Part shown: positions 6,713 through 58,867 of the stretch, in pieces
Layout of the letters: each line of letters starts with the position of its first letter
How positions within the stretch are numbered: position 1 is the stretch's first letter
DNA from: Arenicola marina
Lineage: Eukaryota; Annelida; Polychaeta; Arenicolidae
Length of the DNA stretch: 64,000 nucleotides
NCBI GenBank assembly: GCA_964019135.1
Contig: OZ025248.1
Coordinates: 37,007,670-37,071,669, forward strand
Direction of reading: 5' to 3'
Translations under genes and position numbers: made by a program
Notes under the pieces: generated by a model
The model's input: only the letters and a program-made list of their open reading frames with translations
What the model was told of the DNA's origin: nothing
Databases searched by the model: none

Positions 6713-7000
6713 GTCCGGGGGGGGGATTTAAACCATAAGTTTAAGCCATATATGATTTAGTATATTAACTCCTTAAAAAAACGTCATAATTGATCAGCTA
6801 ACTCGTATGTAGGCATATAATTTGTTTTAAATGGCCAAGCAATATTATTTCTTATTAGTATCGTCGTAATATTCCATGATGAAGTGAAGATAAATATATG
6901 ATTTCCATTTACGTGTCTTAATAGTGCGATATGGTATATGAATATCCTTAGCTCATATTTCATGTATCATTTTTGGAACCCTAGCTGTGCTATAAACACG

Positions 7001-10000: not shown

Positions 10001-11112
10001 CGACTGTGACAAACAGGGGCTGCTATGCAAGGCCTACACACCTGGCTGACTGTGACAAACAGGGCTGGTATGCAAGGCCTACACACCTGGCCGATTGTGA
10101 CAAACAGGGGCTGGTATGCAAGGCCTACACACCTGGCCGACTGTGACCAGCAGGGGCTGGTATGCAAGGCATACACACCTCGCCGACTGTGACAAACAGG
10201 GGCTGGTATGCACGGCCTACAGACCTGGCCGACTGTGACAAACAGGGGCTGGTATGCAAGCCCTACACACCTGGCCGACTGTGACAAACAGGGGCTGGTA
10301 TGCCCGGCTTACACACCTGGCCGACTGTGACAAACAGGGGCTGGTATGCAAGGCCTACACACCTGGACGACTGTGACAAACAGGGGCTGGTATGCAAGGC
10401 CTACACACCTGGCCGACTGTGACAAACAGGTGCTGGTATGCAAGGCCTACACACCTGGCCGACTGTGACAAACTGGGCTGGTATGCAAGGCCTACACACC
10501 TGGCCGACTGTGACAAACAGGGGCTGGTATGCAAGGCCTACACACCTGGCCGACTGTGACAAACAGGGGCTGGTATGCAAGGCCTACACACCTGGCCGAC
10601 TGTGACAAACAGGGGCTGGTATGCAAGGCCTACACACCTGGCCGACTGTGACAAACTGGGCTGGTATGCAAGGCCTACACACCTGGCCGACTGTGACAAA
10701 CAGGGGCTGGTATGCAAGGCCTACACACCTGGCCGACTGTGACAAACTGGGCTGGTATGCAAGGCCTACACACCTGGCCGACTGTGACAAACAGGGGCTG
10801 GTATGCAAGGCCTACACACCTGGCCGACTGTGACAAACTGGGCTGGTATGCAAGGCCTACACACCTGGCCGACTGTGACAAACAGGGCTGGTATGCAAGG
10901 CCTACACACCTGGCCGACTGTGACAAACAGGGGCTGGTATGCAAGGCCTACACACCTGGCCGACTGTGACAAACAGGGGCTGGTATGCAAGCCCTACACA
11001 CCTGGCCGACTGTGACAAACAGGGGCTGGTATGCAAGGCCTACACACCTGGCCGACTGTGACAAACAGGGGCTGGTATGCAAGCCCTACACACCTGGCCG
11101 ACTGTGACAAAC
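7001..11112. repeat. 45/46-bp minisatellite array, about 90 units
   Basis: Contiguous head-to-tail units built on GGGGCTGGTATGCAAGGCCT then ACACACCTGGCCGACTGTGA then CAAACA. Units are 46 bp with a GGGG start or 45 bp with GGG. Common variants are GGCCT/GCCCT/GGTCT, CAAACA/CGAACA, GGTATG/GCTATG and CCGACT/CTGACT. There are no unique spacers, so this is not a CRISPR. Higher-order structure is visible: a block carrying marker variants at 7957 and about 8143 is repeated 408 bases later (8365 and about 8551), nine units apart. The 45-bp units keep frame, so several short repetitive open frames appear on both strands; none looks like a gene. Confidence 0.97.
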
Positions 11113-12035: not shown

Positions 12036-13111
12036 TAGGGTGAAAGCCTGGGCGGGACACTGGGTGGGATATTGGTTGAGAGCCTGGGTGAGAGCCTGGG
12101 TGAGAGCCTGGGTGAGGGCCTGGGTGAGAACCTGGGTGAGGGCCTGGGTGAGAACCTGGGTGAGGGCCTGGGTGAGGGCCAGGGTGAGAGCCTGAGTGAG
12201 GGCCTGGGTGAGAAGTGAGAGCCTGAGTGAGGGCCTGGGTGAGAGCCTGGGTGAGAGCCTGGGTGAGAGCCTGGGTGAGAACCTGGGTGAGGGCCTGGGT
12301 GAGAGCCTGGGTGAGAGCCTGGGTGAGAGTCTGGGTGAGAACCTGGTAAGACATTGGGTGAGAGCCTAGGAGGGACATTGGGTGAGGGCCTGGGTGAGAG
12401 CCTGGGTGAAGGCCTGGGTAAGATATTGGGTAAGAGCATGGGTGAGAGCCTGGGTGAGAGCCTGGGTAGGACATTGGGTAAGAGCCTGGGTGAGAGCATG
12501 GGTGAGAGCCTGGGTGAGAGCCTGAGTGAGGTCCTGGGTGAGGGCATGGGTGAGAGCCTGGGTGAGAGTCTGAGTGAGGGCCTGCGTGAGAGCCTGGGTG
12601 AGAGTCTGAGTGAGGGCCTGGGTGAGAGCCTGGGTGAGAGCCTGGGTGAGAGCCTGGGTAAGACATTGGGTAAGAGCCTGCGTGAGAGCATGGGTGAGAG
12701 CCTGGGTGAGTGCCTGCGTGAGGGCCTGGGTGAGAGGCTGGGTGAGGGCCTGGGTAAGACATTGGGTAAGAGCCTGGGTGAGAGCCTGGGTGAGAGCCTG
12801 GGTAGGACATTGGGTAAGAGCCTGGGTGAGAGCATGGGTGAGAGCCTGGGTGAGAGTCTGAGTGAGGGCCTGGGTGAGAGCCTGGGTGAGAGTCTGAGTG
12901 AGGGCCTGGGTGAGAGCCTGGGTGAGAGCCTGGCTGAGAGCCTGGGTGGGAGCCTGAATGAGGGCCTGAGTGAGGGCCTGGGTGGGGCCCTGGGTGAGGG
13001 CCAGGGTGAGAGCCTGAGTGAGGGCCTGGGTGAGAGCCTGGGTGAGAGCCGGGGTGAGAGCCTGGGTGAAAGCCTGGGCGGGAGATCTGGTGCGAGCCTG
13101 GGTGGGACCCG
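12036..13111. repeat. 12-bp minisatellite array, GTGAGAGCCTGG-type
   Basis: About 90 degenerate 12-bp units (GTGAGAGCCTGG, GTGAGGGCCTGG, GTAAGACATTGG, GTAGGACATTGG). Marker units show higher-order repetition: GTAGGACATTGG at 12466 and 12802 are exactly 336 bases (28 units) apart. Because 12 is a multiple of 3, long frames stay open on both strands: a 480-codon minus-strand frame (12004-13446) reads as Pro-Gly-Ser-His repeats and a 255-codon plus frame as Gly-Glu-Ser-Leu repeats. There is no supporting gene structure. Confidence 0.95.
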
Positions 13112-21372: not shown

Positions 21373-22255
21373 CATGATAATATCTAATGTGTCTAATATA
21401 TATAGCGAAGGGTTAGTTACAGCATGTTACTCAACTACTCTAACGAAAATTTAAGCCCGCCGAGTATCACATGAATCTTCGGGAACCCGTCAAAGTAGGC
21501 CTATACTTGCCATTCATGAACCTCGTCAGTTATAACATGGCAGGTTCATCGTAATGCCGGGTACGATCATTACTTCAACAGCCGTAACAACGGTCGAAGC
21601 ATCGGTTGGTCAACAGTTCACACGGTCAAAGCATGTACCGATTGACTCAACAATTAACACTACCGCCACCTAGCGAACATACCATTGCAACATCACTCAT
21701 AACGGTATGCATACAAGCCACACATAGATTAATAAGTGTCATAATGCAAACAATGTCAACGTGATCATCCCAAATGCTGATTGGCTAAACTGCTCGACGC
21801 CGATCGGTTGAAAATTCTCAAATCGTGAAGTTCACACTTTAGAACTTGACATGCGCTTAGCTTACAATGCGTGGAAAACCGGCCCCCCAATTGCACAGGT
21901 GATCGAACAGTTTGTTGCAATGAACTGTACAACGTCTTGCATCGTGCGAACAGGACATAAGGTACAACATCATGAAGGGAGGCGGACTGGGGTAAGTATT
22001 GGACAGGGACAATCAATAGGTCCTGATAGTAGACGCGACGGTTCACACTTTTACACTATATGTCACTGACATATTACTACATATATGTTCATATATTGTT
22101 TAATGGATATTAGAAAGTCAATCTTTTTAAATATATTGTTTTTAGTAAGCAATGAAATTCTGCTGACGCCGTCATAATGGGTTACTGCAAGACGTGGTGG
22201 TACAGTGGATGTACTTGTCATAACGCGCCCAATAAATAGAGCGGAAAACGCTTGT
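21373..22255. other. Non-coding region before the foldback element
   Basis: No recognised gene or RNA. Frames of under 100 codons have no family match. Confidence 0.5.
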
Positions 22256-29754: not shown

Positions 29755-31690
29755 TGATGATAATGATGATGGCTCTGATGGGGATAGCTCTGATGGGGAT
29801 GGCCCTGATGGGGATGGCTCTGATGGGGATGGCTCTGATTGGGATGGCCCTTATGGAGATGACTGATGGGGATGGCTCTGATGGGGATGGCCCTGATGGG
29901 GATGGCCCTGATGGGGATGGCTGTGATGGGGATGGCTCTGCTGGGGATGGCTGTGATGGGGATGGCTCTGCTGGGGATGGCTCTGATGGGGATGGCTCTG
30001 ATGGGGATGACCCTGATGGGTATGGCTCTGATGGGTATGGCTCTGATGGGGATGGCTCTGCTGGGGATGGCCCTGCTGGGGATGGCTCCGATGGGGATGG
30101 CTCTGATGGGGGCGGCTCTGATGGGGATGGCTCTGATGGGGATGGCTCTGCTAGGGATGGCTCTGATGGGAATGGCTCTGATGGGGATGGCTCTGATGGG
30201 GATGGCTCTGATGGGAATGGCTTTGATGGGGATGGCCCTGATGGGGATGGCTCTGATGGGGATGACCCTGATGGGGATGGCTCTGATGGGGATGGCCTTG
30301 ATGGGGATGGCTCTGATGGGGATGGCTCTGATGGGGATGGCCCTGATGGGGATGGCCCTGATGGGGATGGCCCTGATGGGGATGGCTCTGATGGGGATGG
30401 CTCTGACGGGGATGGCCCTGATGGGGATGGCCCTGATGGGGATGGCCTTGATGGGGATGGCCCTGATGAAGATGGCTCTGATGGGAATGGCTCTGATGGG
30501 GATGGCCCTGATGGGGATGGCTCTGATGGGGATGTCTCTGATGGGGATGGCCCTGATGGGGATGGCTCTGATGGAGATGACTCTGATGAGAATGGCTCTG
30601 ATGGGGATGGCTCTGATGGAGATGACTCTGTTGGGGATGGCTCTGATGGGGATGGCTCTGATGGGGATGGCCCTGATGGGGATGGCGCTGATGGGGATGG
30701 CTGTGATGGGGATGGGCCTGATGGGGATGGCTCTGATGGGGATGGCCCTGATGGGGATGGCTCTGATGAGAATGGCTCTGATGGGGAGAGCTCTGATGGG
30801 AATGGCTCTGAAGGGGATGGCTCTGATGGGAATGGCTCTGATGGGGATGTCCCTGGTGGGGAGGGGTCTGATGGGGATGGGTCTGATGGGGATGGTCTGA
30901 TGGGGATGGCCCTGATGGGGATGGCTCTGATGAGAATGGCTCTGATGGGGAGAGCTCTGATGGGAATGGCTCTGCAGGGATGGCTCTGATGGGAATGGCT
31001 CTGATGGGGATGTCCCTGGTGGGGATGGCTGTGATGGGGATGGGCCTGATGGGGATGGCTCTGATGGGCATGGCCCTGATGGGGATGGCTCTGATGAGAA
31101 TGGCTCTGATGGGGAGAGCTCTGATGGGAATGGCTCTGAAGGGGATGGCTCTGATGGGAATGGCTCTGATGGGGATGTCCCTGGTGGGGATGGCTGTGAT
31201 GGGGATGGGCCTGATGGGGATGGCTCTGATGGGCATGGCCCTGATGGGGATGGCTCTGATGAGAATGGCTCTGATGGGGAGAGCTCTGATGGGAATGGCT
31301 CTGAAGGGGATGGCTCTGATGGGAATGGCTCTGATGGGGATGTACCTGGTGGGGAGGGGTCTGATGGGGATGGGTCTGATGGGGATGGTCTGATGGGGAT
31401 GGCTCTGAAGGGAATGGCTCTGATGGGGATGTCCCTGGTGGGGATGGCTGTGATGGGGATGGGCCTGATGGGGATGGCTCTGATGGGCATGGCCCTGATG
31501 GGGATGGCTCTGATGAGAATGTCTCTGATGGGGAGAGCTCTGATGAGAATGGCTCTGAAGGGGATGGCTCTGATGGGAATGGCTCTGATCGGGATGTCCC
31601 TGGTGGGGAGGGGTCTGATGGGGATGGGTCTGATGGGGATGGTCTGATGAGGGTGGCCCTTACGGGGATGTCTCTGATGGGGATAACCCT
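29755..31690. repeat. 15-bp minisatellite array, GGCTCTGATGGGGAT-type, about 128 units
   Basis: Degenerate 15-bp units (GGCTCTGATGGGGAT, GGCCCTGATGGGGAT, GGCTCTGATGAGAAT and others). The right half shows higher-order structure: the GGGGATGTCCCTGGTGGGGA marker recurs near 31011 and 31176, and as GATGTACCTGGTGGGGA near 31341, that is every 165 bp (11 units). A one-base-short unit near 31390 shifts the phase. Period 15 keeps all frames open: a 472-codon plus frame (29571-30989) reads Asp-Gly-Asp-Gly-Ser/Pro and a 606-codon minus frame (29670-31490) reads Ile-Arg-Ala-Ile-Pro. Simultaneous opening of several frames argues against a gene. Confidence 0.95.
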
Positions 31691-32710: not shown

Positions 32711-33460
32711 GAACCCCTCCGCCAGATTTGTATAATAGGGCCCCCCCTCCCCCCCCCCCCACAGGCACAGAACAGCTAAGGAGGCATAATTGTGTCCATC
32801 ATGAGAGGTTGGCGTCGTCGCTAGCTAATATTATTCCAGCATATATAGGACGGTGGCGTAAGCCTTAATCCACGCTTGAGTGACCAAAATCTTTGTCGAT
32901 GTGGCCCTTGGGTCCATCAAATTTAAAGGGCGTCTGACGATTTGTTTTAAATTTATGGAGGTATTATCCATAAAACCAAGGCATTATCAGATCACAAATC
33001 AAGTGCATTGTCAACTGCCTGTGCAATGTCGTTCATAGTGTACCCGTGACTTTGATACATGTATTATCTGACATCGTGATAGGTAATAAAGCTGAGAGGG
33101 TTACACCGACCTTAGCGCCTCCCAGACAGCACAAGGGAATGGATATCCAACGAGTAATTGATGATGGAACGGTTGCCCGGCGTGGCTTTGTCTGCGTTGA
33201 ATGCTTGCTTTATCACTCCAATCTCTCCAGCAATTTTATATGACAAATGGCGGAATACAGGGTTGGCGGGTACAGACGAGGGCTGATGATGTGCGTGTAT
33301 ATATGTTACCGAGATTATGTTTTCCGTCAACTGTCAGCTTTGTGATGATCAAATTTTAATAAATTTCTTGGGAAAAATAGAATATTTTTTTGTCATTTTT
33401 TCTTGTTACGTTGACGTTACGAGTTCATATTCTGCCTCGTAGTACTTCAATTTCACAGAT

Positions 33461-33605
33461 GCGGTGTGTTTGCGGTGCCGTACTGTATTTGTCTAGGCCC
33501 ACATGGGCATGCGGTGGGTTTGCGGTGCCGTACTGTACTTGTTTAGGCCCACATTGGCATGCGGTGTGTTTGCGGTGCCGTACTGTACTTGTTTAGGCCC
33601 ACATT
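33461..33605 (+). repeat. Small 50-bp array, about 2.8 units
   Basis: Same unit as the large array at 41465-43264 (GCGGTGTGTTTGCGGTGCCG then TACTGTACTTGTTTAGGCCC). Both arrays are preceded by CACAGATGCGGTGTG, so they share an origin although they lie 8 kb apart. Confidence 0.92.
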
Positions 33606-33779
33606 AGCTGCACAGACCACGTGTCAGTAACTTAACAATACAATACATCGTGCGTAACCCTAATTTGCCAATGAGGACGCACGCTGGGAGTTCTGGGATA
33701 GTTACTTTTCCGCTATATTTCGCAACTACTGGGGTAATTTTTATTGGTGTTGGTGCCACTGAACTGCCAACACGAGTGC

Positions 33780-36700
33780 AAGCGATGTGTGTGGGATAAG
33801 ACCCATTGCCCAGGGGTCCTGAGACAAGCGATGTGTGTGGGATAAGACCCATGGCCCAGGGGTCCTGAGACAAGCGATGTGTGTGGGATAAGACCCATTG
33901 CCCAGGGGTCCTGAGACAAGCGATGTGTGTTGGATAAGACCCATGGCCCAGGGGTACTGAGACAAGCGATGTGTGTGGAATAAGACTCATTGCCCAGGGG
34001 TACTGAGACAAGCGATGTGTGTTGGATAAGACCCATGGCCCAGGGGTACTGAGACAAGCGATGTGTGTGGGATAAGACCCATGGCCCAGGGGTACTGAGA
34101 CAAGCGATGTGTGTGGGATAAGACCCATTGCCCAGGGGTACTGAGACAAGCGATGTGTGTGGGATAAGACCCATGGCCCAGGGGTCCTGAGACAAGCGAT
34201 GTGTGTGGGATAAGACCCATGGCCCAGGGGTACTGAGACAAGCGATGTGTGTGGAATAAGACTCATTGCCCAGGGGTACTGAGACAAGCGATGTGTGTGG
34301 GATAAGACCCATTGCCCAGGGGTACTGAGACAAGCGATGTGTGTGGGATAAGACCCATGGCCCAGGGGTACTGAGACAAGCGATGTGTGTGGGATAAGAC
34401 CCATGGCCCAGGGGTACTGAGACAAGCGATGTGTGTGGGATAAGACCCATGGCCCAGGGGTCCTGAGACAAGCGATGTGTGTGGGATAAGACCCATTGCC
34501 CAGGGGTACTGAGACAAGCGATGTGTGTGGGATAAGACCCATGGCCCAGGGGTACTGAGACAAGCGATGTGTGTGGGATAAGACCCATGGCCCAGGGGTA
34601 CTGAGACAAGCGATGTGTGTGGGATAAGACCCATGGCCCAGGGGTACTGAGACAAGCGATGTGTGTGGGATAAGACCCATGGCCCAGGGGTACTGAGACA
34701 AGCGATGTGTGTGGGATAAGACCCATTGCCCAGGGGTACTGAGACAAGCGATGTGTGTGGGATAAGACCCATGGCCCAGGGGTACTGAGACAAGCGATGT
34801 GTGTGGGATAAGACCCATGGCCCAGGGGTACTGAGACAAGCGATGTGTGTGGGATAAGACTCATGGCCCAGGGGTACTGAGACAAGCGATGTGTGTGGAA
34901 TAAGACTCATTGCCCAGGGGTACTGAGACAAGCGATGTGTGTGGGATAAGACCCATGGCCCAGGGGTACTGAGACAAGCGATGTGTGTGGGATAAGACCC
35001 ATGGCCCAGGGGTACTGAGACAAGCGATGTGTGTGGGATAAGACCCATGGCCCAGGGGTACTGAGACAAGCGATGTGTGTGGGATAAGACCCATGGCCCA
35101 GGGGTCCTGAGACAAGCGATGTGTGTGGGATAAGACCCATTGCCCAGGGGTACTGAGACAAGCGATGTGTGTGGAATAAGACTCATTGCCCATGGGTACT
35201 GAGACAAGCGATGTGTGTGGGATAAGACCCATTGCCCAGGGGTACTGAGACAAGCGATGTGTGTGGGATAAGACCCATGGCCCAGGGGTACTGAGACAAG
35301 CGATGTGTGTAGGATAAGACCCATGGCCCAGGAGTACTGAGACAATCGATGTGTGTGGGATAAGACCCATGGCCCAGGGGTCCTGAGACAAGCGATGTGT
35401 GTGGGATAAGACCCATTGCCCAGGGGTACTGAGACAAGCGATGTGTGTGGGATAATACCCATTGCCCAGGGGTACTGAGACAAGCGATGTGTGTGGGATA
35501 AGACCCATGGCCCAGGGGTCCTGAGACAAGCGATGTGTGTGGGATAAGACCCATTGCCCAGGGGTCCTGAGACAAGCGATGTGTGTGGGATAAGACCCAT
35601 GGCCCAGGGGTCCTGAGACAAGCGATGTGTGTGGGATAATACCCATGGCCCAGGGGTCCTGAGACAAGCGATGTGTGTGGGATAAGACCCATGGCCCAGG
35701 GGTACTGAGACAAGCGATGTGTGTGGGATAAGACCCATGGCCCAGGGGTACTGAGTCAAGCGATGTGTGTGGGATAAGACCCATGGCCCAGGGGTACTGA
35801 GACAAGCGATGTGTGTGGGATAAGACCCATGGCCCAGGGGTCCTGAGACAAGCGATGTGTGTGGGATAAGACCCATGGCCCAGGGGTACTGAGACAAGCG
35901 ATGTGTGTGGGATAAGACCCATTGCCCAGGGGTACTGAGACAAGCGATGTGTGTGAGATAAGACCCATGGCCCAGGGGTCCTGAGACAAGCGATGTGTGT
36001 GGGATAAGACCCATGGCCCAGAGGTACTGAGACAAGCGATGTGTGTGGGATAAGACCCATTGCCCAGGGGTACTGAGACAAGCGATGTGTGTGGGATAAG
36101 ACTCTTGGCCCAGGGGTACTGAGACAAGCGATGTGTGTGGGATAAGACCCATGGCCCAGGGGTCCTGAGACAAGCGATGTGTGTGGGATAAGACCCATGG
36201 CCCAGGGGTACTGAGACAAGCGATGTGTGTGGGATAAGACCCATGGCCCAGGGGTACTGAGACAATCGATGTGTGTGGGATAAGACCCATGGCCCAGGGG
36301 TCCTGAGACAAGCGATGTGTGTGGGATAAGACCCATGGCCCAGGGGTACTGAGACAAGCGATGTGTGTGGAATAAGACTCATTGCCCAGGGGTACTGAGA
36401 CAAGCGATGTGTGTGGGATAAGACCCATTGCCCAGGGGTACTGAGACAAGCGATGTGTGTGGGATAAGACCCATGGCCCAGGGGTACTGAGACAAGCGAT
36501 GTGTGTGGGATAAGACCCATGGCCCAGGGGTACTGAGACAAGCGATGTGTGTGGGATAAGACCCATGGCCCAGGGGTCCTGAGACAAGCGATGTGTGTGG
36601 GATAAGACCCATTGCCCAGGGGTACTGAGACAAGCGATGTGTGTGGGATAAGACCCATGGCCCAGGGGTACTGAGACAAGCGATGTGTGTGGGATAAGAC

Positions 36701-39394
36701 CCATGGCCCAGGGGTACTGAGACAAGCGATGTGTGTGGGATAAGACCCATGGCCCAGGGGTACTGAGACAAGCGATGTGTGTGGGATAAGACCCATGGCC
36801 CAGGGGTACTGAGACAAGCGATGTGTGTGGGATAAGACCCATTGCCCAGGGGTACTGAGACAAGCGATGTGTGTGGGATAAGACCCATGGCCCAGGGGTA
36901 CTGAGACAAGCGATGTGTGTGGGATAAGACCCATGGCCCAGGGGTACTGAGACAAGCGATGTGTGTGGGATAAGACTCATGGCCCAGGGGTACTGAGACA
37001 AGCGATGTGTGTGGAATAAGACTCATTGCCCAGGGGTACTGAGACAAGCGATGTGTGTGGGATAAGACCCATGGCCCAGGGGTACTGAGACAAGCGATGT
37101 GTGTGGGATAAGACCCATGGCCCAGGGGTACTGAGACAAGCGATGTGTGTGGGATAAGACCCATGGCCCAGGGGTACTGAGACAAGCGATGTGTGTGGGA
37201 TAAGACCCATGGCCCAGGGGTCCTGAGACAAGCGATGTGTGTGGGATAAGACCCATTGCCCAGGGGTACTGAGACAAGCGATGTGTGTGGAATAAGACTC
37301 ATTGCCCATGGGTACTGAGACAAGCGATGTGTGTGGGATAAGACCCATTGCCCAGGGGTACTGAGACAAGCGATGTGTGTGGGATAAGACCCATGGCCCA
37401 GGGGTACTGAGACAAGCGATGTGTGTAGGATAAGACCCATGGCCCAGGAGTACTGAGACAATCGATGTGTGTGGGATAAGACCCATGGCCCAGGGGTCCT
37501 GAGACAAGCGATGTGTGTGGGATAAGACCCATTGCCCAGGGGTACTGAGACAAGCGATGTGTGTGGGATAATACCCATTGCCCAGGGGTACTGAGACAAG
37601 CGATGTGTGTGGGATAAGACCCATGGCCCAGGGGTCCTGAGACAAGCGATGTGTGTGGGATAAGACCCATTGCCCAGGGGTCCTGAGACAAGCGATGTGT
37701 GTGGGATAAGACCCATGGCCCAGGGGTCCTGAGACAAGCGATGTGTGTGGGATAATACCCATGGCCCAGGGGTCCTGAGACAAGCGATGTGTGTGGGATA
37801 AGACCCATGGCCCAGGGGTACTGAGACAAGCGATGTGTGTGGGATAAGACCCATGGCCCAGGGGTACTGAGTCAAGCGATGTGTGTGGGATAAGACCCAT
37901 GGCCCAGGGGTACTGAGACAAGCGATGTGTGTGGGATAAGACCCATGGCCCAGGGGTCCTGAGACAAGCGATGTGTGTGGGATAAGACCCATGGCCCAGG
38001 GGTACTGAGACAAGCGATGTGTGTGGGATAAGACCCATTGCCCAGGGGTACTGAGACAAGCGATGTGTGTGGGATAAGACCCATGGCCCAGGGGTCCTGA
38101 GACAAGCGATGTGTGTGGGATAAGACCCATGGCCCAGAGGTACTGAGACAAGCGATGTGTGTGGGATAAGACCCATTGCCCAGGGGTACTGAGACAAGCG
38201 ATGTGTGTGGGATAAGACTCTTGGCCCAGGGGTACTGAGACAAGCGATGTGTGTGGGATAAGACCCATGGCCCAGGGGTCCTGAGACAAGCGATGTGTGT
38301 GGGATAAGACCCATGGCCCAGGGGTACTGAGACAAGCGATGTGTGTGGGATAAGACCCATGGCCCAGGGGTACTGAGACAATCGATGTGTGTGGGATAAG
38401 ACCCATGGCCCAGGGGTCCTGAGACAAGCGATGTGTGTGGGATAAGACCCATGACCCAGGGGTACTGAGACAAGCGATGTGTGTGGGATAAGACCCATGG
38501 GCCAGGGGTACTAAGACAAGCGATGTGTGTGGGATAAGACCCATGGCCCAGGGGTACTGAGACAAGCGATGTGTGTGGGATAAGACCCATGGCCCAGGGG
38601 TACTGAGACAAGCGATGTGTGTGGGATAAGACCCATGGCCCAGGGGTCCTGAGACAAGCGATGTGTGTGGGATAAGACCCATGGCCCAGGGGTACTGAGA
38701 CAAGCGATGTGTGTGGGATAAGACCCATGGCCCAGGGGTACTGAGACAAGCGATGTGTGTGGGATATGACCCATGGCCCAGGGGTCCTGAGACAAGCGAT
38801 GTGTGTGGGATAAGACCCATGACCCAGGGGTACTGAGACAAGCGATGTGTGTGGGATAAAACCCATGGGCCAGGGGTACTAAGACAAGCGATGTGTGTGG
38901 GATAAGACCCATGGCCCAGGGGTACTGAGACAAGCGATGTGTGTGGGATAAGACCCATGGCCCAGATGTACTGAGACAAGCGATGTGTGTGGGATAAGAC
39001 CCATGGCCCAGGGGTCCTGAGACAAGCGATGTGTGTGGGATAAGACCCATGGCCCAGGGGTACTGAGACAAGCGATGTGTGTGGGATAAGACCCATTGCC
39101 CAGGGGTACTGAGACAAGCGATGTGTGTGGTATAAGACCCATGGCCCAGGGGTACTGAGACAAGCGATGTGTGTGGGATAAGACCCATGGCCCAGGGGTA
39201 CTGAGACAAGCGATGTGTGTGGGATAAGACCCATTGCCCAGGGGTACTGAGACAAGCGATGTGTGTGGGATAAGACCCATTGCCCAAGGGTCCTGAGACA
39301 AGCGATGTGTGTGGGATAAGACCCATTGCCCAGGGGTCCTCAGACAAGCGATGTGTGTGGGATAAGACCCATGGCCCAGGGGTCCTGAGACAAG
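33780..39394. repeat. 46-bp satellite array, about 122 units
   Basis: Uninterrupted head-to-tail units CAAGCGATGTGTGTGGGATA then AGACCCATGGCCCAGGGGTA then CTGAGA. Main variants are CCATGG/CCATTG, GGTAC/GGTCC, GGGATA/GGAATA and ACCCAT/ACTCAT. The minus-strand reading has no stop in any of its three frames, so frames of up to 958 codons appear as a 46-residue repeat cycling through the three frames. This is a property of the unit and not evidence of a gene. A single diverged copy of the unit survives at 52907-52961 in segment B. Confidence 0.97.
34158..38476. repeat. 2,116-bp higher-order duplication inside the 46-bp array
   Basis: About 34158-36360 matches about 36274-38476 at a constant offset of 2,116 bases (46 units of 46 bp). 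Shared rare variants include GGAATAAGACTCATTGCCCA at 34252 and 36368, CCCATGGGTACTGAG near 35189 and 37305, and GATAATACCC near 35451 and 37567. One difference seen is GTGAGATAAG (about 35952) against GTGGGATAAG (about 38068). Near-identity implies a recent unequal exchange or an assembly duplication. Confidence 0.85.
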
Positions 39395-39779
39395 TAATAC
39401 GTGAGTGACCATGTGCTTTGGCAAAAGCGATGTATCGCATATATATGTAATGGCCCGGATGACTGGGAAACTAATATTCCCTCCGCGTGGCGCTAGGGGT
39501 AAACACACGTAATATCGGTGTCCATGGCACTACACTGCCAGCATAAAGACATTGGTTGTGTGTGGGGTCTGAGCCAGGCACAGGCTCGCCATATGCTGTT
39601 TATAGGCCAACATGATGAAGTGCACCATCATGTTCTGAGTTGAGCATTAATGTTTGGGATTGGTGCACCCCCGATGACACATTCGCTTTTGGGAGGCATC
39701 TAAATTATATTCCTCATTCAAAATCCCCAATAGACTCGGGCCGGGAACCATTCTCTTATGCTTCATTAACTAATGGCTC
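39395..39779. other. Unique part of segment A right of the satellite
   Basis: No gene recognised. Only weak similarity to the corresponding part of segment B. Confidence 0.4.
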
Positions 39780-40160
39780 CGTTCGGACAGCGGACGTCAG
39801 GGGAGATTAAACGAATTAATGGTAGGACGGAGAACCAAAATGTTCAATGAATCCCGTGCGGCAATACATTAGAGTGTGTGGAGCGTAAAGTCTTATTAAC
39901 AAAAACACACATTAATAGAATAAGATTTAGGGCGGGCCATTTGTGGCACGACAATGCTGATGCTTCATTCTGCCTGTAATGTTTACCATGGGAAGCCTTC
40001 AGAAGTTGTTTCTCCCCCGATGTCCTTTAGACATAGAGGGAGACTCGCTCTCCTGTGGTTCATAACGTGAACGGTTTGGGTCGATCGTAGACGTCTCCAA
40101 GGACAGTCGAGTCGATGGCATCCGGGCATTTTGGTGGTGGAGCTTGAGGCTACTGCCTCT
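39780..40160 (+). repeat. Y-module copy in segment A
   Basis: Contains ACACGACAATGCTGATG-like sequence (about 39948), GCCTGTAATG, CCCGATGTCC, GAGACTCGCTCTCCTGTGG and CATAACGTGAA, in the same order as at 53106-53515 (segment B). More distant matches lie at 45620-46065 and, inverted, at 62745-63120. Confidence 0.75.
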
Positions 40161-40439
40161 ATACTGAGGAATCTACTTTGTCTGGCGCCGCTTCCAGACG
40201 TCTTATCATCAATAACGTTATCGTCATTATATTAAAAATCATATGTAAGATGTAAATGACATTCATCACCAGATTGGCGGTAAAGGGAACAATTCCAGTT
40301 ATGTAAATACTGACAATAATGATAATGAAGATTCTGGCACTAACGATAACATTGACGATTCTGATAGTGATAACGTTGATGGAAACACTGACAATGATAC
40401 TGATATTAGCCTACAATCACTGGTTATGTTAATAATGCT

Positions 40440-40865
40440 ACTGACCCATCAGGTGTTAATAATGATACTGATCCTAACGTTCTTAATAATGATACTGATC
40501 CTAACGTTCTTAATAATGATACTGATCCTAACGTTCTTAATAATGATACTGATCCTAACGTTCTTAATAATGATACTGATCCTAACGTTCTTAATAATGA
40601 TACTGATCCTATTGCTGTTAACAATGATACTGATCCTATTGCTGTTAATAATGATACTGATCCTAACGTTCTTAATAATGATACTGATCCTAACGTTCTT
40701 AATAATGATACTGATCCTATTGCTGTTAATAATGATACTGATCCTATTGCTGTTAACAATGGCACTGATCTTAGCGATGTTGGGAATATTAATAATCATA
40801 ATGATGTTACTCATGACACTGATCATAATGCTATTAATAATAAATACCGATCCTAATGTTGCTAA
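40440..40865 (+). repeat. 27-bp tandem repeat, about 12 clear units plus decayed edges
   Basis: Unit AATAATGATACTGATCCTAA then CGTTCTT, alternating with a variant ending TTGCTGTT. Type order is five CGTTCTT units, two TTGCTGTT, two CGTTCTT, two TTGCTGTT, which suggests block duplication. The flank at 40310-40430 is Asp/Asn-codon-like degenerate sequence. The position is homologous to the 30-bp array of segment B (53931-54197), and both units share GATCCTAA. Confidence 0.9.
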
Positions 40866-41464
40866 TATATGACAACGTTCTAACAGTTAATGCTGCAGGT
40901 GACGAAAGCGATTGATCACAGTCATAAAAGTAAGTAATGATGAGCATGGCTGGAATAATAATGATACTGATGAAAGGCATGACCAGACTAACACTGATAA
41001 GTCACATGATATGAATGAAGAATAGCAATGGTAGTTGTGATGATTATCACAGGTTAATTATGGTAATGATATTCAAATGTTAATCTGATGGTATTATGGT
41101 GCTGGTGTACTTGATGGTAATGCTGAAAACTATAACCAGCCTCTCCTAATGCAACAAAGATTCCAGCGTTTTGATGGCTTAATAACAAAGAAGAAACCGA
41201 TATGGCTTAATAGCAAAGAGGAAACCGTTGTCAATGAGCTGTCGGCCCGACCGTGTTACGGGGCTGGTGTGGGCGAGGCCAGTCACGTGCCCACACCCAC
41301 GCGCCAACCTAATGCGCTGGCGAATATCTGTGGAGTCGTTTATGCGGACATTTGCTATTCACAAAACCTTCTTTGCATTTGCAGCTGATTGCCTCAACAA
41401 GATCTTATTATTCACTTGGATGCCTTGCCACGTGTCAGTGTCAATGGGTTCGAAGTACACAGAT

Positions 41465-43264
41465 GCGGTGTGTTGCGGTGCCGTACTGTACTTGTTCAGG
41501 CCCACATGGGCATGCGGTGTGTTTGCGGTGCCGTACTGTACTTGTTTAGGCCCACATGGGCATGCGGTGTGTTTGCGGTGCCGTACTGTACTTGTTTAGG
41601 CCCACATGGGCATGCGGTGTGTTTGCGGTGCCGTACTGTACTTGTTTAGGCCCACATGGGCATGCGGTGTGTTTGCGGTGCCGTACTGTACTTGTTTAGG
41701 CCCACATGGGCATGCGGTGTGTTTGCGGTGCCGTACTGTACTTGTTTAGGCCCACATGGGCATGCGGTGTGTTTGCGGTGTGGTACTGTACTTGTTTAGG
41801 CCCACATGGGCATGTGGTGGCTTTGCGGTGCCGTACTGTACTTGTTTAGGCCCACTTGGGCATGCGGTGTGTTTGCGGTGCCGTACTGTACTTGTTTAGG
41901 CCCACATGGGCATGCGGTGTGTTTGCGGTGCCGTACTGTACTTGTTTAGGCCCACATGGGCGTGCGGTGTGTTTGAGGTGCCGTACTGTACTTGTTTAGG
42001 CCCACATGGGCATGCGGTGTGTTTGCGGTGCCGTACTGTACTTGTTTAGGCCCACATGGGCATGCGGTGTGTTTGCGGTGCCGTACTGTACTTGTTTAGG
42101 CCCACATGGGCATGCGGTGTGTTTGCGGTGCCGTACTGTACTTGTTTAGGCCCACATGGGCGTGCGGTGTGTTTGAGGTGCCGTACTGTACTTGTTTAGG
42201 CCCACATGGGCATGCGGTGTGTTTGCGGTGCCGTACTGTACTTGTTTAGGCCCACATGGGCATGCGGTGTGTTTGCGGTGCCATACTGTACTTGTTTAGG
42301 CCCGCATGGGCATGCGGTGTGTTTGCGGTGCCGTACTGTACTTGTTTAGGCCCACATGGGCATGCGGTGTGTTTGCGGTGCCGTACTGTACTTGTTTAGG
42401 CCCACATGGGCATGCGGTGTGTTTGCGGTGCCGTACTGTACTTGTTTAGGCCCACATGGGCATGCGGTGTGTTTGCGGTGTGGTACTGTACTTGTTTAGG
42501 CCCACATGGGCATGTGGTGGCTTTGCGGTGCCGTACTGTACTTGTTTAGGCCCACTTGGGCATGCGGTGTGTTTGCGGTGCCGTACTGTACTTGTTTAGG
42601 CCCACATGGGCATGCGGTGTGTTTGCGGTGCCGTACTGTACTTGTTTAGGCCCACATGGGCATGCGGTATGTTTGCGGTGCCGTACTGGACTTGTTTAGG
42701 CCCACATGGGCATGCGGTGTGTTTGCGGTGCCGTACTGTACTTGTTTAGGCCCACATGGGCATGCGGTGTGTTTGCGGTGTCGTACTGTACTTGTTTAGG
42801 CCCACATGGGCATGCGGTGTGTTTGCGGTGCCGTACTGTACTTGTTTAGGCCCACATGGGCATGCGGTATGTTTGCGGTGCCGTACTGTACTTGTTTAGG
42901 CCCACATGGGCATGCGGTGTGTTTGCGGTGCCGTACTGTACTTGTTTAGGCCCACATGGGCATGCGGTGTGTTTGCGGTGCCGTACTGTACTTGTTTAGG
43001 CCCACATGGGCATGCGGTGTGTTTGCGGTGCCGTACTGTACTTGTTTAGGCCCACATGGGCATGCGGTGTGTTTGCGGTGCCGTACTGTACTTGTTTAGG
43101 CCCACATGGGCATGCGGTGTGTTTGCGGTGCCGTACTGTACTTGTTTAGGCCTACATGGGCATGCGGTGTGTTTGCGGTGCCGTACTGTACTTGTTTAGG
43201 CCTACATGGGCATGCGGTGTTTTTGCGGTGCCGTACTGTACTTGTTTAGGCCCACATGAGCATT
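41465..43264 (+). repeat. 50-bp minisatellite array, 36 units
   Basis: Unit CATGCGGTGTGTTTGCGGTG then CCGTACTGTACTTGTTTAGG then CCCACATGGG. A marker trio (TGGTACTGTA, CATGTGGTGGC, CCCACTTGGG) occurs at about 41781-41860 and again at about 42481-42560, exactly 700 bases (14 units) apart. Other marker pairs (GTTTGAGGTG at 41971/42171; GCGGTATGTT at 42664/42864) are 200 bases apart. There are no unique spacers. Confidence 0.97.
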
Positions 43265-52029: not shown

Positions 52030-52906
52030 AATCTAAGTGGTGGGCGTCGCCGCTACATTATTTTAACTGCAGCGTCTTCCTGCAGCGTTTTACCACTGCT
52101 TGAGTGACCCAAGGCTTTGTTGATCGGGTCAAGAGAATTAAGACGCTTATGGCAACAAAGTTATATGATTGACTTAATATTTCTATGACCCTCGCATTAT
52201 CAGATCAGTAATCAAGTTTCGTGGCAGCGGCCTGTGTGATGTCGTGAATTAAGAGCCGACAGCGGCTTACATTATTGCAGTCACCCCAGTCATGTATTGA
52301 AAAATGAGTTTTAGCAGGTAAATGCAGGGAGCTGACGATATGCGTTGTAATATCATTTACATTATTTCGCGGGTATGAAAACGTGCCTTCCTTTAACCAT
52401 CAACTCTCTGATGATCAAATGTCAAACATTGTTTCGGAAGAAATTATTTGGCGGCTATGCTTCACGTTACGTTGACGTAACATCAATATCCACGCAGAGT
52501 TTTAAGTTCCGCGATCCATTTTCTACATCTCAGCATCATCCGCCGTTTTTCAGATTAGCTCCGTACCTCCCGCCCACGGGAGGGCCCGGTCACTCCCCAC
52601 ACTGTCGCTATCCATCCCGCCACGTTAGAGATGTGAGCTGTGTTCGTTGGTTTCACCACGGGTGGCCAGCGAGCCATCACTCCCAGTCGTCTGGTCGTGT
52701 TCAACACGGCTACACAGACCACTTGTCAGTAACTTACCCATACAATGAACGGTGCGCAAACTTTGCAACGTAATATATGGGTAACCCTAATTTGGTAAAT
52801 TGGGATATTTGCTGAGAGTTGTGTCATAATTAATTTTCCTCCACATTTTGCTACTACTTTGGTACTTTATGTTTGTGTTCGTGGCACTAAACTCTTACTA
52901 CCTGGG

Positions 52907-52961
52907 CAAGCGGTGTGTCTGGGTTAATACCGATAACCTATGTGTACTGAGACAGGTGATG
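52907..52961 (+). repeat. Single diverged copy of the 46-bp satellite unit
   Basis: CAAGCGGTGTGTCTGGGTTA then ATACCGATAACCTATGTGTA then CTGAGACAGGTGATG aligns along its length with the 46-bp unit of 33780-39394 plus the start of the next unit. It sits at the homologous position, after the shared CAGACCAC, GTAACCCTAATTT and GGCACT landmarks. Confidence 0.8.
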
Positions 52962-53105
52962 CTTGACTCGCTATGCGTTTTTCAATGTTATCGCAAAGCA
53001 TGCCTGGAGAGTAGTATTAATGTTGTGGCGTGGTATCACCCATGAAGTTAAGAGCTGCAAGACATCCTGTGTTCTCATGCTGTTAATAAACTAAAGGCTG
53101 TTGGC

Positions 53106-53515
53106 TTACAGTGGCCGTTAGGTAAGAAATTAAAACGGACCAATGGTGGATTTTTCCGCGAACATCAACCCACTTTCGTGCGTGGCGCTTGAAGCCTTAT
53201 TCTGAGACCGACAACGGACTTTTTTTTGGTCTTGCGGTATAAACTGCAAACCAAACAAACAATAGTGAACCAAGATTTAGGGCAGGTAATATTGCGACAC
53301 GACAATGCTGATGGTTGTTACATTTAGCCTGTAATGTGGGCCATAGGAAGCCGTCAGAGGTTGTTTGTCACCCGATGTCCTCCAGACATTGCGGGAGACT
53401 CGCTCTCCTGTGGCTCATAACGTGAAGGGTTTAGGGCGAGCGTGGACGTCTCCAAGGACAATCGAGTCGATTAATATCGGACTTTGTGGTTGCGCTTGAG
53501 GCTCTCACTCCCGCC
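53106..53515 (+). repeat. Y-module copy in segment B
   Basis: ACACGACAATGCTGATGG, GCCTGTAATG, CACCCGATGTCCTCCAGACA, GAGACTCGCTCTCCTGTGGC and CATAACGTGAAG occur in the same order as in segment A at 39930-40130. Confidence 0.8.
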
Positions 53516-53930
53516 TTGTGCCGGTGCAGTACTCCATGCTGGTTGCAAGCAATCATCCATTGTTATGGCAATGAAGATAATTATAAAACAGAACAACACT
53601 CGTAGAGAGTGTGGCTAAAATGCAATAAATGTGATGATAAAGGTACTGATGGAACAAATCCAGTAATTAGTAAGTAATTGGTGTATTATAGTCACTTATG
53701 AGGAATACAACTGATAACATGTACGACAGGGTAAACACTCACTATAAATCCTCACCCAGCCCTACTGGGCTTAACAGTGACTGGAATTCATGGTCCTTGT
53801 ACTGCCTCATATTTCGGCCTGAAGAGAAAAGAGCGAAAAAAACACAAAAAACACACAGCGTTATTGTGTATTTTGGTGACGTTGACATGATGTTGGTGAT
53901 AATAAGGATAATTATAGTGATTGGTAATAA

Positions 53931-54197
53931 TGGAGATCCTAATGGTCATGCTGGTCATGCTGGAGATCCTAATGGTCATGCTGGTCATGCTGGAGATCCT
54001 AATGGTCATGCTGGTCATGCTGGAGATCCTAATGGTCATGCTGGTCATGCTGGAGATCCTAATGGTCATGCTGGTCATGTTGGAAATCCTAATGGTCATG
54101 CTGGTCATGCTGGAGATCCTAATGGTCATGCTGGTCATGCTAGAGATCCTAATGGTCATGCTGGTCATGCTGGAGATCCTAATGGTCATGCTGGTCG
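53931..54197 (+). repeat. 30-bp tandem repeat, about 9 units
   Basis: Unit GGAGATCCTAATGGTCATGC then TGGTCATGCT. Homologous in position to the 27-bp array at 40440-40865. Divisible by three, so repetitive frames are open on both strands (205-codon plus frame at 53698-54315, Asn-Gly-His-Ala-Gly type); no gene support. Confidence 0.95.
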
Positions 54198-54817
54198 CCA
54201 TTCGGGGAAAGACCTTAAAACATTTCCTCTCGTCATGCAGCACACGATTGGTTCTCACGTCTGGTTTTCTGTGGCTAAAACCAATGACACTGATGTGAAT
54301 GGGCTCTCCGCCTGACAGTGCTGAAAGCCTGGTGTGGAGGAGGCTACTCGCGTGTCCACGCCTATAGGGGCCTTCGCACGCGCTGGTGAATATCTAAAGT
54401 GATTTGTTAAAGGGCAATAACTTTGGTAATGCCATCACGAAGCAAGGTGCCAAGGATGGTAATACTAATAATACTAGTAATAATTATGATGATTGCTCGT
54501 GTCCAGAATACCCTGAAGCATCAACCCTCACCATGGTTTCCAGCAAAAAACAGTTCCTTGCACCAGCTTTTCTATGGTTTCAATTATCTCTGTTAATGAG
54601 CCGTCGGCCGGAGAGTGTTAGGAGGCGGGTGAGGATGAGGCCATTAGCGTGCCCACACCCAGTGGCCATTCGCATGCGCGGGCGAGTTTATAAAAGAGTC
54701 GTTTGTGGGGACATTTGCTGTAAACAGCCAACAACGTCTATACATTCCGGGGGTGCGTGGGAGCCTCACTAACCACAACTAATTCACTTCTTTTTTTCCC
54801 TCCTAGTGTCCGCAACA

Positions 54818-55048: not shown

Positions 55049-58000
55049 TTATTGATATCTGAAACGATGAGTAGATGCAACAAATGTAGATATGACGTCA
55101 ATTATAATAGAGTTTGCAGTAAGACGCTCGTGGCCGTAGAGGAATAAATGTACAATATCTTTTCGATTGAGGTCATGAGTTATTCTAATAAGACTGCCGA
55201 TTAAACATTCTCTTTCGCGGTTATAATTAGGACAGTCGAGAAAAAAATGCATAACAGTCTCACTAACAGCACCACATGAACAGTAGGGGCTTTCGTTGCA
55301 TAGTTTATCGTACAGATGTTTGTTTAAATTGCTGAAACCCAGTCGCATTTGCGCTAATGTCACTTGCAATTTTCTTGAACCCATATAAAAGTACCTTACT
55401 TTGCTTTGACGTATGGTATACCGAGAGCAATACAGAGATCGAAATTGGCTAACAGATTGGCAACTACGCAGTGCACGCGGCAAAGAGTTCCACCTTCGTG
55501 TACCTGTGGGGAAGAAACTAGATAAGTAACTATTGGTTGTACAATGGATGGTGCGGAATTGATTGGCATTGTTGCCTCGCGTCGTTCTGTTGGAACCCAA
55601 CCTGGATGGAAGTCTAGATGTGATATAGGATGGGGTTACGCCTAGGACGCACTGGGCATATTTAACAGCGATCTGAAATTGGCGGCGGTCTGTAAGTGAG
55701 GGCAGACCGCTTTCGTTCAATAACCCGATTCTAGATGATCGGCTCTTTGCACCAGTGAATACGCGGATGGCCTCGTTTTGAACGTTTTCGATCTCCTGGC
55801 TGCTCTTGGCATCACAGTTTGCAAATACAACACTACCATATTCTAAGAGTGGCCGCACATATGACAAATAAAATAGCTCTAAACTCTTACGAGACCACTT
55901 ATACTTCACCCGTTTAAGCAGATTCAATCTAACGGACGCTTTAGTAGTAATAATTCGGACGTGTCTTGTCCATGACATAATAGACATAAAGGTGATACCC
56001 AGGTGCTTATGAGATGACACTTGTTCAATGGTACGGCCGGCTATATGTACATGGTGTTTGATATCGCGATTCTTCTTACTGAACAATACAGTCTTTGTTT
56101 TCTCTACGCTGGTCTCCATTTTCCATTTTTCAGACCACTCATGTATAGCTTGTAGATCGCGGTTTAATGCTCTTATATCTGCCTCGGCATCTAAACCGAT
56201 GACCTTGAATATAGACACATCGTCAGCGAAGAGGAATGTGTCGCTGTCTACGTCTTCTGTAATATCGTTAATGTAAACCAAGAAAAGCAAAGGCCCCAAA
56301 ACGGAGCCTTGCGGAACACCGGCTTCAACTTGACGCATAGACGACGACCTATTACGCTGTACAACAATTTGAAACCTATTTGACAAGTAACTCTTCAACC
56401 ATGATAGGGTTTGGCCTCTTATACCATAACGATGGAGTTTAAATAGTAAACCGGCGTGGCTCACTTTGTCAAAGGCTTTACAAAAGTCTATAAATACGCA
56501 CTGGACTTCGTTACCTCTATCAAGTTCTCTATAAATATTGTCACATAAAACAAGCAATTGGTTGACGGTAGAATCTCCCGGTATAAAACCGGACTGACGT
56601 GGATTTAATATACGGTTTTCTTTTAAGTGTTGGAATATATGACAAAACATAAGCTTCTCAAACACCTTGGAAACACAGGGGAGTAGTGCAACTGGTCGGT
56701 AGTTTGACGGATCACATTTCGAACCCTTCTTATGTAATGGTACAACGTTCGCAAGCTTCCACTGATCGGGAAAGACACCCGTACGCAGAGATCTGTTAAA
56801 TAGCCGAGATAATGGAGAGGCAATCGCATTAGCCCCAATAGTGAGTAGTCTGTTACTTATTTTGTCGCGTCCAGTAGCTTTATTGACGTTTAACTTGGAT
56901 AATATATTGTATACCTCCTCTTCACTTACGACTTTGTCTGGGATAGAAGGGTAGGGGGACCTTGCTAATTCAGAATCATCTAACATTATGTTTGCATCAT
57001 TAACGCGAGTTTGTAATACAAAAAAATCATTGAACGCCTCCGCTTTTTCCAAGTTGTCGCAGATTGTGTTACCTTTGTAAAGCAGGGGCATTGGAGTTTC
57101 TGTCTTCCTTAAATTTAGCTCGCGTTTGATGATGTTCCACCAATTGCGCGAACCACATGGTTCGCGTAGGAGACGATCTTCACTTTTCGCGGCATAAAGT
57201 GCCTTGCTTTTGCGGATTTCATTAACAATGTCATTGCGTAACCTTTTGTAAGAACCTAAGGCATCTGTTCGCGTCACATTTTGCATGAGTTTGTACAAAC
57301 GATCGCGTTTTCTGATAAGACATTTGATGTGGTTAGTTATCCAAGGCTTTGATCCAGGACGAATAGTTGCCATGTAGTGCGGTATACAAAATTCTGCTGT
57401 TTTAAAAAAAATGTCAACCCATACAGTCGCAGCTTCGTCAACATTGGCCGCTAATAGGGCCGCCTCCCACGGAGCTCTATGCAGCAAACTAAGTAACAGC
57501 TCATAGTCGCCGTGCTTATAGTCCCAAACTTCTCTGGTATATGCCTGACTATTCTGAATGTTGATGTTCAACTTTCCTATAATAGGGACGTGATCACAAT
57601 TGGGGTATTTAGACAGCGTACAAGTTTGATCGAACATGCGAGGAATATTCGTACAAAGTAAATCGATACAGCTTTGTGAGTTGGTTCCGTAGCGCGTTGG
57701 TTCGTGTATCATTTGAGTTAGCTTATGCGACTCAAGAAAAGTCAGTAATGCTCGACCCGCGGCACACGTTTTGTCACCACCCCAGAAATTGCTGTGCCTC
57801 GCATTGAAGTCGCCCATGAGTATAACTCCATTGAGGTTCTTTTGGTGCGCCTGCTCAATAACGTCTGACAAATCTCGTACGAACTCACGAACGTGTCGAG
57901 TTTCGGGTCTATAACATATACACAACAAGATCCTTACAGACTTGAGATGGAGTTCAAAACACATGATTTCGCTGTCGCTTGGTTCGATATCGGTTAAGCG

Positions 58001-58471
58001 GCTGCAGTTTACGGACGATTTAACATAGGTTAGTAGTCCACCGTGTTGGTCGTTCACGCGGTCTCTACGAAACAGGCAGTATGAGGGGACTTCTAAACAA
58101 CTGTCAGCAGTACTGTTACCAAGCCATGATTCTGATACTGATACTATGTCAAACTCGTTTGCGGACATGTCAGCCATGAGGTAGTCAAATTTAGTCACGT
58201 TGTTGTGTGCGCGTGCGCCAGCTGCAGCCAGCAGACTTCTGATATTGACATGGAACAAACATAGACGCTTTGATTCCCCAGGCCCCGGGTTATTGTGTAT
58301 ATCACCTGCTCTGCTCAGTAAATTACGCTTAATAAATGTGAGCCATATAAAATTCAGTGCCACTACCTGCCAAAAGAACAATTCGGCGCCGTAGCTTTTA
58401 CTTAATCTGCATCCACGACATCTACAGTGGTAAAGACCAATGTTTATCCTGTGTATTTCAATACTCTGCAT
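55049..58471 (-). CDS. LINE ORF: endonuclease-reverse transcriptase
   Basis: 1,140 residues without a stop. Role: nicks target DNA with an APE-type endonuclease and copies element RNA at the nick (target-primed reverse transcription). Seen in order: hydrophobic stretch 31-47; 2A-like GDIHNNPGP (56-64); endonuclease about 70-300 with N76 (HVNIRSL), E114 (SESW), GDFN (220-223) and CDH (292-294); RT about 560-830 with VVPLHKKGSKCDPSNYRP (576-593), FIDFCKAFD (660-668), GVPQGSVLGP (718-727) and catalytic FADD (748-751); thumb/connection region to about 1000; C-terminal C1064-x-C1066-x8-H1075-x4-C1080 as in many Jockey-group elements. No RNase H domain recognised. Key residues are intact, so activity is plausible. 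An 85-codon frame of unknown meaning (58458-58715) overlaps the start by 14 bases. No ORF1 with a gag-like zinc knuckle is visible upstream. Confidence 0.92.
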   Translation of the reverse strand: MQSIEIHRINIGLYHCRCRGCRLSKSYGAELFFWQVVALNFIWLTFIKRNLLSRAGDIHNNPGPGESKRLCLFHVNIRSLLAAAGARAHNNVTKFDYLMADMSANEFDIVSVSESWLGNSTADSCLEVPSYCLFRRDRVNDQHGGLLTYVKSSVNCSRLTDIEPSDSEIMCFELHLKSVRILLCICYRPETRHVREFVRDLSDVIEQAHQKNLNGVILMGDFNARHSNFWGGDKTCAAGRALLTFLESHKLTQMIHEPTRYGTNSQSCIDLLCTNIPRMFDQTCTLSKYPNCDHVPIIGKLNINIQNSQAYTREVWDYKHGDYELLLSLLHRAPWEAALLAANVDEAATVWVDIFFKTAEFCIPHYMATIRPGSKPWITNHIKCLIRKRDRLYKLMQNVTRTDALGSYKRLRNDIVNEIRKSKALYAAKSEDRLLREPCGSRNWWNIIKRELNLRKTETPMPLLYKGNTICDNLEKAEAFNDFFVLQTRVNDANIMLDDSELARSPYPSIPDKVVSEEEVYNILSKLNVNKATGRDKISNRLLTIGANAIASPLSRLFNRSLRTGVFPDQWKLANVVPLHKKGSKCDPSNYRPVALLPCVSKVFEKLMFCHIFQHLKENRILNPRQSGFIPGDSTVNQLLVLCDNIYRELDRGNEVQCVFIDFCKAFDKVSHAGLLFKLHRYGIRGQTLSWLKSYLSNRFQIVVQRNRSSSMRQVEAGVPQGSVLGPLLFLVYINDITEDVDSDTFLFADDVSIFKVIGLDAEADIRALNRDLQAIHEWSEKWKMETSVEKTKTVLFSKKNRDIKHHVHIAGRTIEQVSSHKHLGITFMSIMSWTRHVRIITTKASVRLNLLKRVKYKWSRKSLELFYLSYVRPLLEYGSVVFANCDAKSSQEIENVQNEAIRVFTGAKSRSSRIGLLNESGLPSLTDRRQFQIAVKYAQCVLGVTPSYITSRLPSRLGSNRTTRGNNANQFRTIHCTTNSYLSSFFPTGTRRWNSLPRALRSCQSVSQFRSLYCSRYTIRQSKVRYFYMGSRKLQVTLAQMRLGFSNLNKHLYDKLCNESPYCSCGAVSETVMHFFLDCPNYNRERECLIGSLIRITHDLNRKDIVHLFLYGHERLTANSIIIDVISTFVASTHRFRYQ

Positions 58472-58867
58472 GAGGGTTTAATAGATGGATCAGGATGAAG
58501 TACCAAGTGAGCAGGGCGGCCATTCGCACTGGTGCGAACAATCGATCTTGCAGCGGCGTTGGCTGGCCAGCATTGAGAAGCCAGTGGCGAACGTAAGCCA
58601 AGGCGTAGATAGGTAATGAGTTATTCTGACTGGAGCTCAGACAAATTACTGAACGGAAGGAAAGAAAGAAAGAGGTTGAGGAAAGGAAGAAAGAAGGAGG
58701 TTTGCAACATGGCATGAAGAGTGGAAGTGTGATTGATCACAGAACGGTTGTGCAGCAAGCAGGCAAAGAAACATTATGTACATTTCAGTCACAAGTTAAT
58801 CAGGACAAACACTTGAAGAGGCATTGCGGGGACCAAGCCGTATTGCCCGGCACAAAATAAGACGTCT

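Follow-up and report, generated by a model that had tools for sequence, protein, structure and literature searches.

A 46-bp minisatellite and unamplified counterparts of its unit in one local cluster of duplicated segments of Arenicola marina

The window, that is, the whole 64,000-nucleotide stretch of DNA analysed here, spans positions 37007670-37071669 of contig OZ025248.1 (C1) in the 867-Mb, 762-contig assembly of the polychaete Arenicola marina. Tandem repeats account for 25.2% of the window (TRF, score of at least 100, period of at least 10), and the same settings give 15.4% for the 50 kb to its left, 1.6% for the 35 kb to its right, and 4.0% for 50 kb past the cluster of paralogous segments to which the locus belongs. 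Two of these segments, A and B, lie in the window, and the copies P1, P2, and P3 form a tandem duplication to its right. No gene was recognised in the paralogous segments, and by eye no frame is open across both conserved blocks in all copies compared. Some paralogous ORFs are alike at the protein level, such as C 95835-96398 and 65959-66264 (42% over 116 amino acids, no Pfam match), which may reflect DNA likeness alone. When ten ORFs were scanned with Pfam, domains were found only in the ORF at 55052-58477, a non-LTR retrotransposon of 1142 amino acids without stops that contains an endonuclease and RVT_1. This retrotransposon sits in the module of B, and P1 has no corresponding sequence. The ORF at 2400-3941 (514 amino acids) gave a Fam20C C-terminal match below the cut-off (E 0.0037) and has the look of a four-jointed homologue. 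No Rfam family reached its gathering score in the window, and no tRNA was found by ARAGORN with bacterial settings. The features that concern the 46-bp unit and its surroundings are the following:

33459..33605, + strand: 50-bp array of 2.9 copies, just left of the left flank of the 46-bp array (TRF)
33607..33644, + strand: left landmark of segment A, matching 52709-52746 (BLAST)
33695..33778, + strand: left flank (L1) of the array in segment A, homologous to the left flank in B
33779..39394, + strand: 46-bp array of segment A, 122 units and a 4-bp partial unit (TRF)
34151..38453, + strand: block of 46 units (2116 bp) present twice in tandem within the array, with one mismatch over a 2187-bp run
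39463..39584, + strand: another left flank with its unit in segment A (A2), diverged and single, right of the array; profile E 1.1e-4
39898..40152, + strand: right-hand conserved block of segment A, 76-80% identical to 11 paralogous blocks
40427..40872, + strand: 27-bp array of 16.4 copies in segment A (TRF)
41463..43263, + strand: 50-bp array of 36 copies, with the same unit as 33459-33605
52709..52746, + strand: left landmark of segment B, 89.5% identical to 33607-33644
52822..52906, + strand: left-hand flank of B's unit, 60/83 identical to its homologue at 33695-33778
52907..52952, + strand: single unamplified 46-bp unit of segment B, 36/46 identical to the array consensus
52953..52961, + strand: stretch after the unit in B that resembles the start of the unit (6/9; background frequency 0.016 at spacing 46)
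53253..53503, + strand: right-hand conserved block of segment B, 79.5% identical to 39903-40151, with stops in all six frames (by eye)
53931..54196, + strand: 30-bp array of 8.9 copies in segment B (TRF)

The 46-bp array of segment A is highly homogeneous. TRF reports a period of 46, 122.1 copies, and 96% matches, the units differ on average at 1.65 of 46 bases, and the 122 units comprise 24 distinct types. Units that lie 46 units apart differ at only 0.63 bases on average, which is a real higher-order period, and the near-perfect repeat of the 2116-bp block could reflect either a mistake in the assembly or a 46-unit duplication of very recent date. A higher-order period of 23 units was rejected, as the mean difference at that lag (1.68) is close to the average. 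At its end the array shows 4 bp of another unit, possibly flank; an origin by slipped strands predicts a last unit shorter than the others (Taylor and Breden 2000, as cited in PMC3389668). The units form no hairpins beyond those of shuffled sequences, with z scores of 0.46 for the A consensus, 0.13 for its reverse complement, 0.06 for the unit of B, -0.40 for that of P2, and 0.52 for the 50-mer. The initial annotation called the array a satellite. The array itself is real, and the term is generous for a single locus of 5.6 kb, since classical satellites form very long arrays and/or occupy many loci and the genome search, a lower bound, reported one array at one place. Head-to-tail units of ~10-100 bp with high similarity are usually called a minisatellite, and this describes the array of segment A. 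No function is claimed for it, and it is most likely neutral.

Segments A and B can be aligned on both sides of the array. BLAST within the window matches 33651-33833 to 52778-52961 (71.7%, E 1e-19), 39903-40151 to 53253-53503 (E 1e-56), and 41229-41356 to 54591-54719, and all A/B matches outside the arrays are colinear and on the + strand. The claim that B holds one diverged 46-bp unit at the place of the ~122 copies in A is thus borne out, as are the shared landmarks on the left, to which the right-hand conserved block can be added. Against the A consensus, the unit of B is 78.3% and its left flank 72.3% identical, so unit and flank have diverged to a like extent. The proposed start of the unit at 52907 stands and the proposed end at 52961 does not: the unit is 52907-52952, and the last nine bases read as right flank. 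The right-hand block lies ~300 bases past the unit in B and ~510 bases past the array in A, which leaves ~200 bases extra in A. Two partial units in B, which the annotation had named as a sign of a collapsed array, were looked for and not found. The best scores of three unit versions against the two flanks of B were 15-20, and each was equalled by 59 to 284 of 300 shuffles.

Between the array and the right-hand block of A lies A2. Compared with A's own left flank and unit, A2 scores 48, a value reached by none of 1000 mononucleotide shuffles (maximum 41); compared with the left flank and unit of B it is weaker, at a score of 30 equalled by 13 of 1000 shuffles. By eye, what follows the array looks like what follows A2. 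The order along segment A is therefore a left flank, 122 units, a short right flank, the left flank once more, one diverged unit, and a right flank. Such a layout would result from an older ~200-bp duplication of which one half was amplified, with the order of events suggested by the layout.

In the genome, the segment appears to be a local family. B 52700-53520 as a query gave at least 24 matches, and all those reported lie on C1 between 37,041,276 and 37,262,903 (222 kb). A query of A's left flank and first unit gave at least 127 matches, and among the matches listed all are on C1, from 37,041,275 to 37,246,010. Genome match counts are lower bounds, and the search method skips very common words. 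The segment had been described as part of a dispersed repeat; this is not supported, and a local cluster of paralogues fits better, since a dispersed repeat or transposable element has copies across the genome and 24 of 24 reported matches in this lower-bound search fall in a 222-kb part of a single contig.

Left flank and unit were combined in a profile from A1 (the site of the array), B, and P1-P3, and this profile found 19 homologous sites, its own five sources among them, 18 of them at E 1.1e-4 or better and one (L041b) at 0.016. L041b was counted, as the regions around L041b and L042b are 95% identical; a weaker match (L025 1013-1122, E 0.066) was left out, and matches in L038 and L039, which repeat the sites of L031 and L032, were counted once. 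The 19 sites are A1, A2, B, P1-P3, two at 93.8 and 96.6 kb (window coordinates extended beyond 64000), and 11 on loci further right, and they are a lower bound, with C1 37.107-37.272 Mb covered in part. Leaving aside A1 and A2, TRF found no array of ~46 bp at the remaining 17 sites (right side only at L025-L027, where the sites abut the left edge of the examined sequence), and the TRF list of the window shows none at A2. Hence 18 of the 19 sites are without a ~46-bp array, and A1 alone is amplified. The unit is single and 46 bp long in B, P2, and P3 and single with a 7-bp deletion in P1, so the same flanks enclose the unit once in these unamplified paralogues. At the distal sites the left flank is recognisable, in most of them followed by no more than roughly 20 bp from the start of the unit; the result there is accordingly an absence of array and is distinct from one intact unit. 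B, which had been presented as the unamplified copy, is one of several, and segment A contains one as well.

P1-P3 are colinear with the module of B except for the left part of B (52826-53598), which is inverted relative to them. P2 and P3 lie ~8.35 kb apart and are 97.7% identical over 7,357 columns. On C1 to the right, three neighbours (L055-L057) carry, next to the inversion breakpoint, both orientations of a stretch of 66-71 bp (B 53529-53599).

These observations bear on the direction and the age of the change. An unrooted tree of the left flank and unit start places A1 together with B and P1-P3 (support 0.913), in the midst of unamplified sites. The expansion or homogenisation of the array is younger than the segment duplications, because its units differ at 1.65 of 46 bases, compared with 10 of 46 between the consensus and B, and the right-hand block of A is only 76-80% identical to its paralogues. 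We consider it probable, with good confidence, that a single-copy 46-bp stretch of a duplicated segment expanded in A, and that A2 and the other copies found stayed unamplified. The annotation's central proposal, namely that a pre-amplification and an amplified state of the site share one contig, is supported by the 18 of 19 sites without a ~46-bp array, and together with the small differences among the units these sites make it most likely that the unit was ordinary sequence before it expanded.

Three other histories were weighed. In the first, the array was already present in the ancestral segment, and recombination between units reduced it to a single unit in B and in each of the other copies. 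Tandem arrays do contract, and P1-P3 lack bases beside the unit, which hints at deletions there. However, such a history requires independent collapse in several lineages and in the same register, and the unit (78-81%) and left flank (72-78%) of these copies have diverged alike from A. Remnants of further units were sought with three unit versions on both sides of B, P1, and P2 and on the right side of P3; one P3 comparison gave the smallest count, 9 of 300 shuffles, and every other comparison gave 59 or more. We therefore regard a collapse as improbable. The second history, in which the unit is an internal part of a genome-dispersed transposable element amplified in one insertion, fares slightly worse and is quite improbable. 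Minisatellites from mobile elements are often reported, according to PMC6947457, but the reported segment matches (24 of 24) lie at C1 37.041-37.263 Mb, as do the listed A-flank matches, the ten ORFs gave just the reverse-transcriptase ORF and the sub-threshold Fam20C match, and the relation of P2 to P3 is a tandem duplication. The third and least probable, a very doubtful arrival of the array in A as a ready-made satellite insertion, could draw on A's 50-bp array, which occurs at two places and suggests that arrays may move, but the 46-bp unit is in register with the single unit of B and continues unbroken into the homologous left flank, and a two-unit query of the 46-mer gave at least 56 genome matches, each reported one of which lies inside the array of segment A.

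Under the preferred history of growth in place from a single copy, the ancestral segment would have contained an ordinary 46-bp stretch once, followed by an imperfect copy of the stretch's own start. After the segment duplication, a ~200-bp tandem duplication around the site would have occurred in copy A, and the 46-bp stretch of its first half would then have been duplicated and grown to 122 units, with the second half (A2) remaining unamplified; the ~200-bp duplication would in that order precede the expansion. The short imperfect repeats that bound the unit may have started the process by slippage or unequal exchange, and the later growth may have proceeded by unequal exchange of large blocks. 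The start of the unit resembles the sequence right after it at 9/13 bases in A (background 0.003) and 7/13 in B (background 0.039), where the background is the share of positions outside the arrays with such likeness at spacing 46, a weak and length-dependent statistic. In B, the likeness is 6/9 at 0.016, 6/10 at 0.030, and 7/15 at 0.083; in A it is likewise 6/9, with 1.6-3.0% for 9 and 10 bases as in B and 0.3% for 15 bases. P1-P3 have a shortened or deleted right flank beside the unit, and the terminal repeat is for this reason visible only in A and B. The likeness agrees with an initiation between short flanking repeats without proving it, and supports this initiating mechanism weakly.

The model of Haber and Louis (1998), as cited in PMC6947457 and PMC3389668, places the birth of minisatellites between short flanking direct repeats, and in an origin of this type the precursor is flanked by direct repeats of 5-10 bp. 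The resemblance would lie in a stretch between similar short sequences that is duplicated and then expanded, with later unequal exchange of longer homologous stretches. In contrast to that model, the flanking repeats here are imperfect (6/9 in B), and it is paralogues sharing the contig that show the precursor. Several eutherian genomes carry the CapA satellite as a single copy, and in Platyrrhini alone is it amplified (Valeri et al. 2018, cited in PMC8210747). As here, a single-copy precursor and an amplified state are both known. CapA was compared between species, whereas here a 222-kb span of a single contig contains both the 5.6-kb array and the unamplified paralogues. The sea-urchin Sp185/333 cluster also combines short tandem repeats with segmental duplications in a local duplicated cluster, according to PMC5103432; it is an immune gene family, whereas no gene was recognised in the segments described here. 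Among the matches listed in the literature search, no title names such a locus. The birth of an array from a single-copy precursor is already in print for CapA (PMC8210747), and the present locus is a good natural example and not a new kind.

The accepted picture of the origin of tandem repeats is unchanged. Their beginnings are commonly inferred by comparing species or strains. Here, one chromosome region contains the site both with and without amplification, and how a tandem repeat was born can be followed along a single stretch. Several arrays differ in copy number among neighbours, and hypotheses on flanks, composition, and short repeats can thus be compared across paralogues.

Different paralogues of the cluster hold arrays of 46-, 50-, 27-, 30-, and 34-mers. 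The 27-mer array of A corresponds to about 1-2 units in P2, P3, L031, and L032. The 30-mer of B is a single unit in P1, P2, and P3, which is the reciprocal of the 46-mer case. A 34-bp array lies at matching positions of three paralogues, with 5.7 units in L036 (584-782), 3.8 in L037 (2270-2398), and ~2 in L058 (~3900-3976, C 95.9 kb). The 50-bp arrays lie at two places 8 kb apart and are up to 97% identical, and these are the sole places reported genome-wide (at least 17 matches). In sequence, their unit is similar to the place in B where the left flank passes into the 46-bp unit. Against the 19 sites, the 50-mer scores 37 at B, 34 at P1, 32 at A1, 28 at P2/P3, and 12-27 at the other 14, and among 3242 windows outside the arrays its best scores fall at the unit sites of B and P1. 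The site score was reached by 0 of 3000 shuffled 50-mers for B, 2 for A1, and 20 for P2. An origin of the 50-mer at the 46-mer site is a lead, because an unrelated place near 21551-21750 scores 31, above P2/P3, and the background of 3940 windows reaches as much as 34. The 50-mer of A may come from the same precursor as the 46-mer in a shifted register. It is conceivable, though we would put it at somewhat under an even chance, that one ~100-bp precursor seeded the 46-mer (x122) and the 50-mer (x36 and x2.9) in overlapping registers and that the cluster repeatedly turns unique sequence into arrays. If true, the unamplified paralogues would be matched controls for asking why some sequences tend to expand. 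Further large arrays in the window, also from TRF, comprise 90 copies of a 46-bp unit at 7000-11112, which differs in sequence from the 46-mer of segment A, 87 copies of a 12-bp unit at 12038-13104, and 128 copies of a 15-bp unit at 29768-31684.
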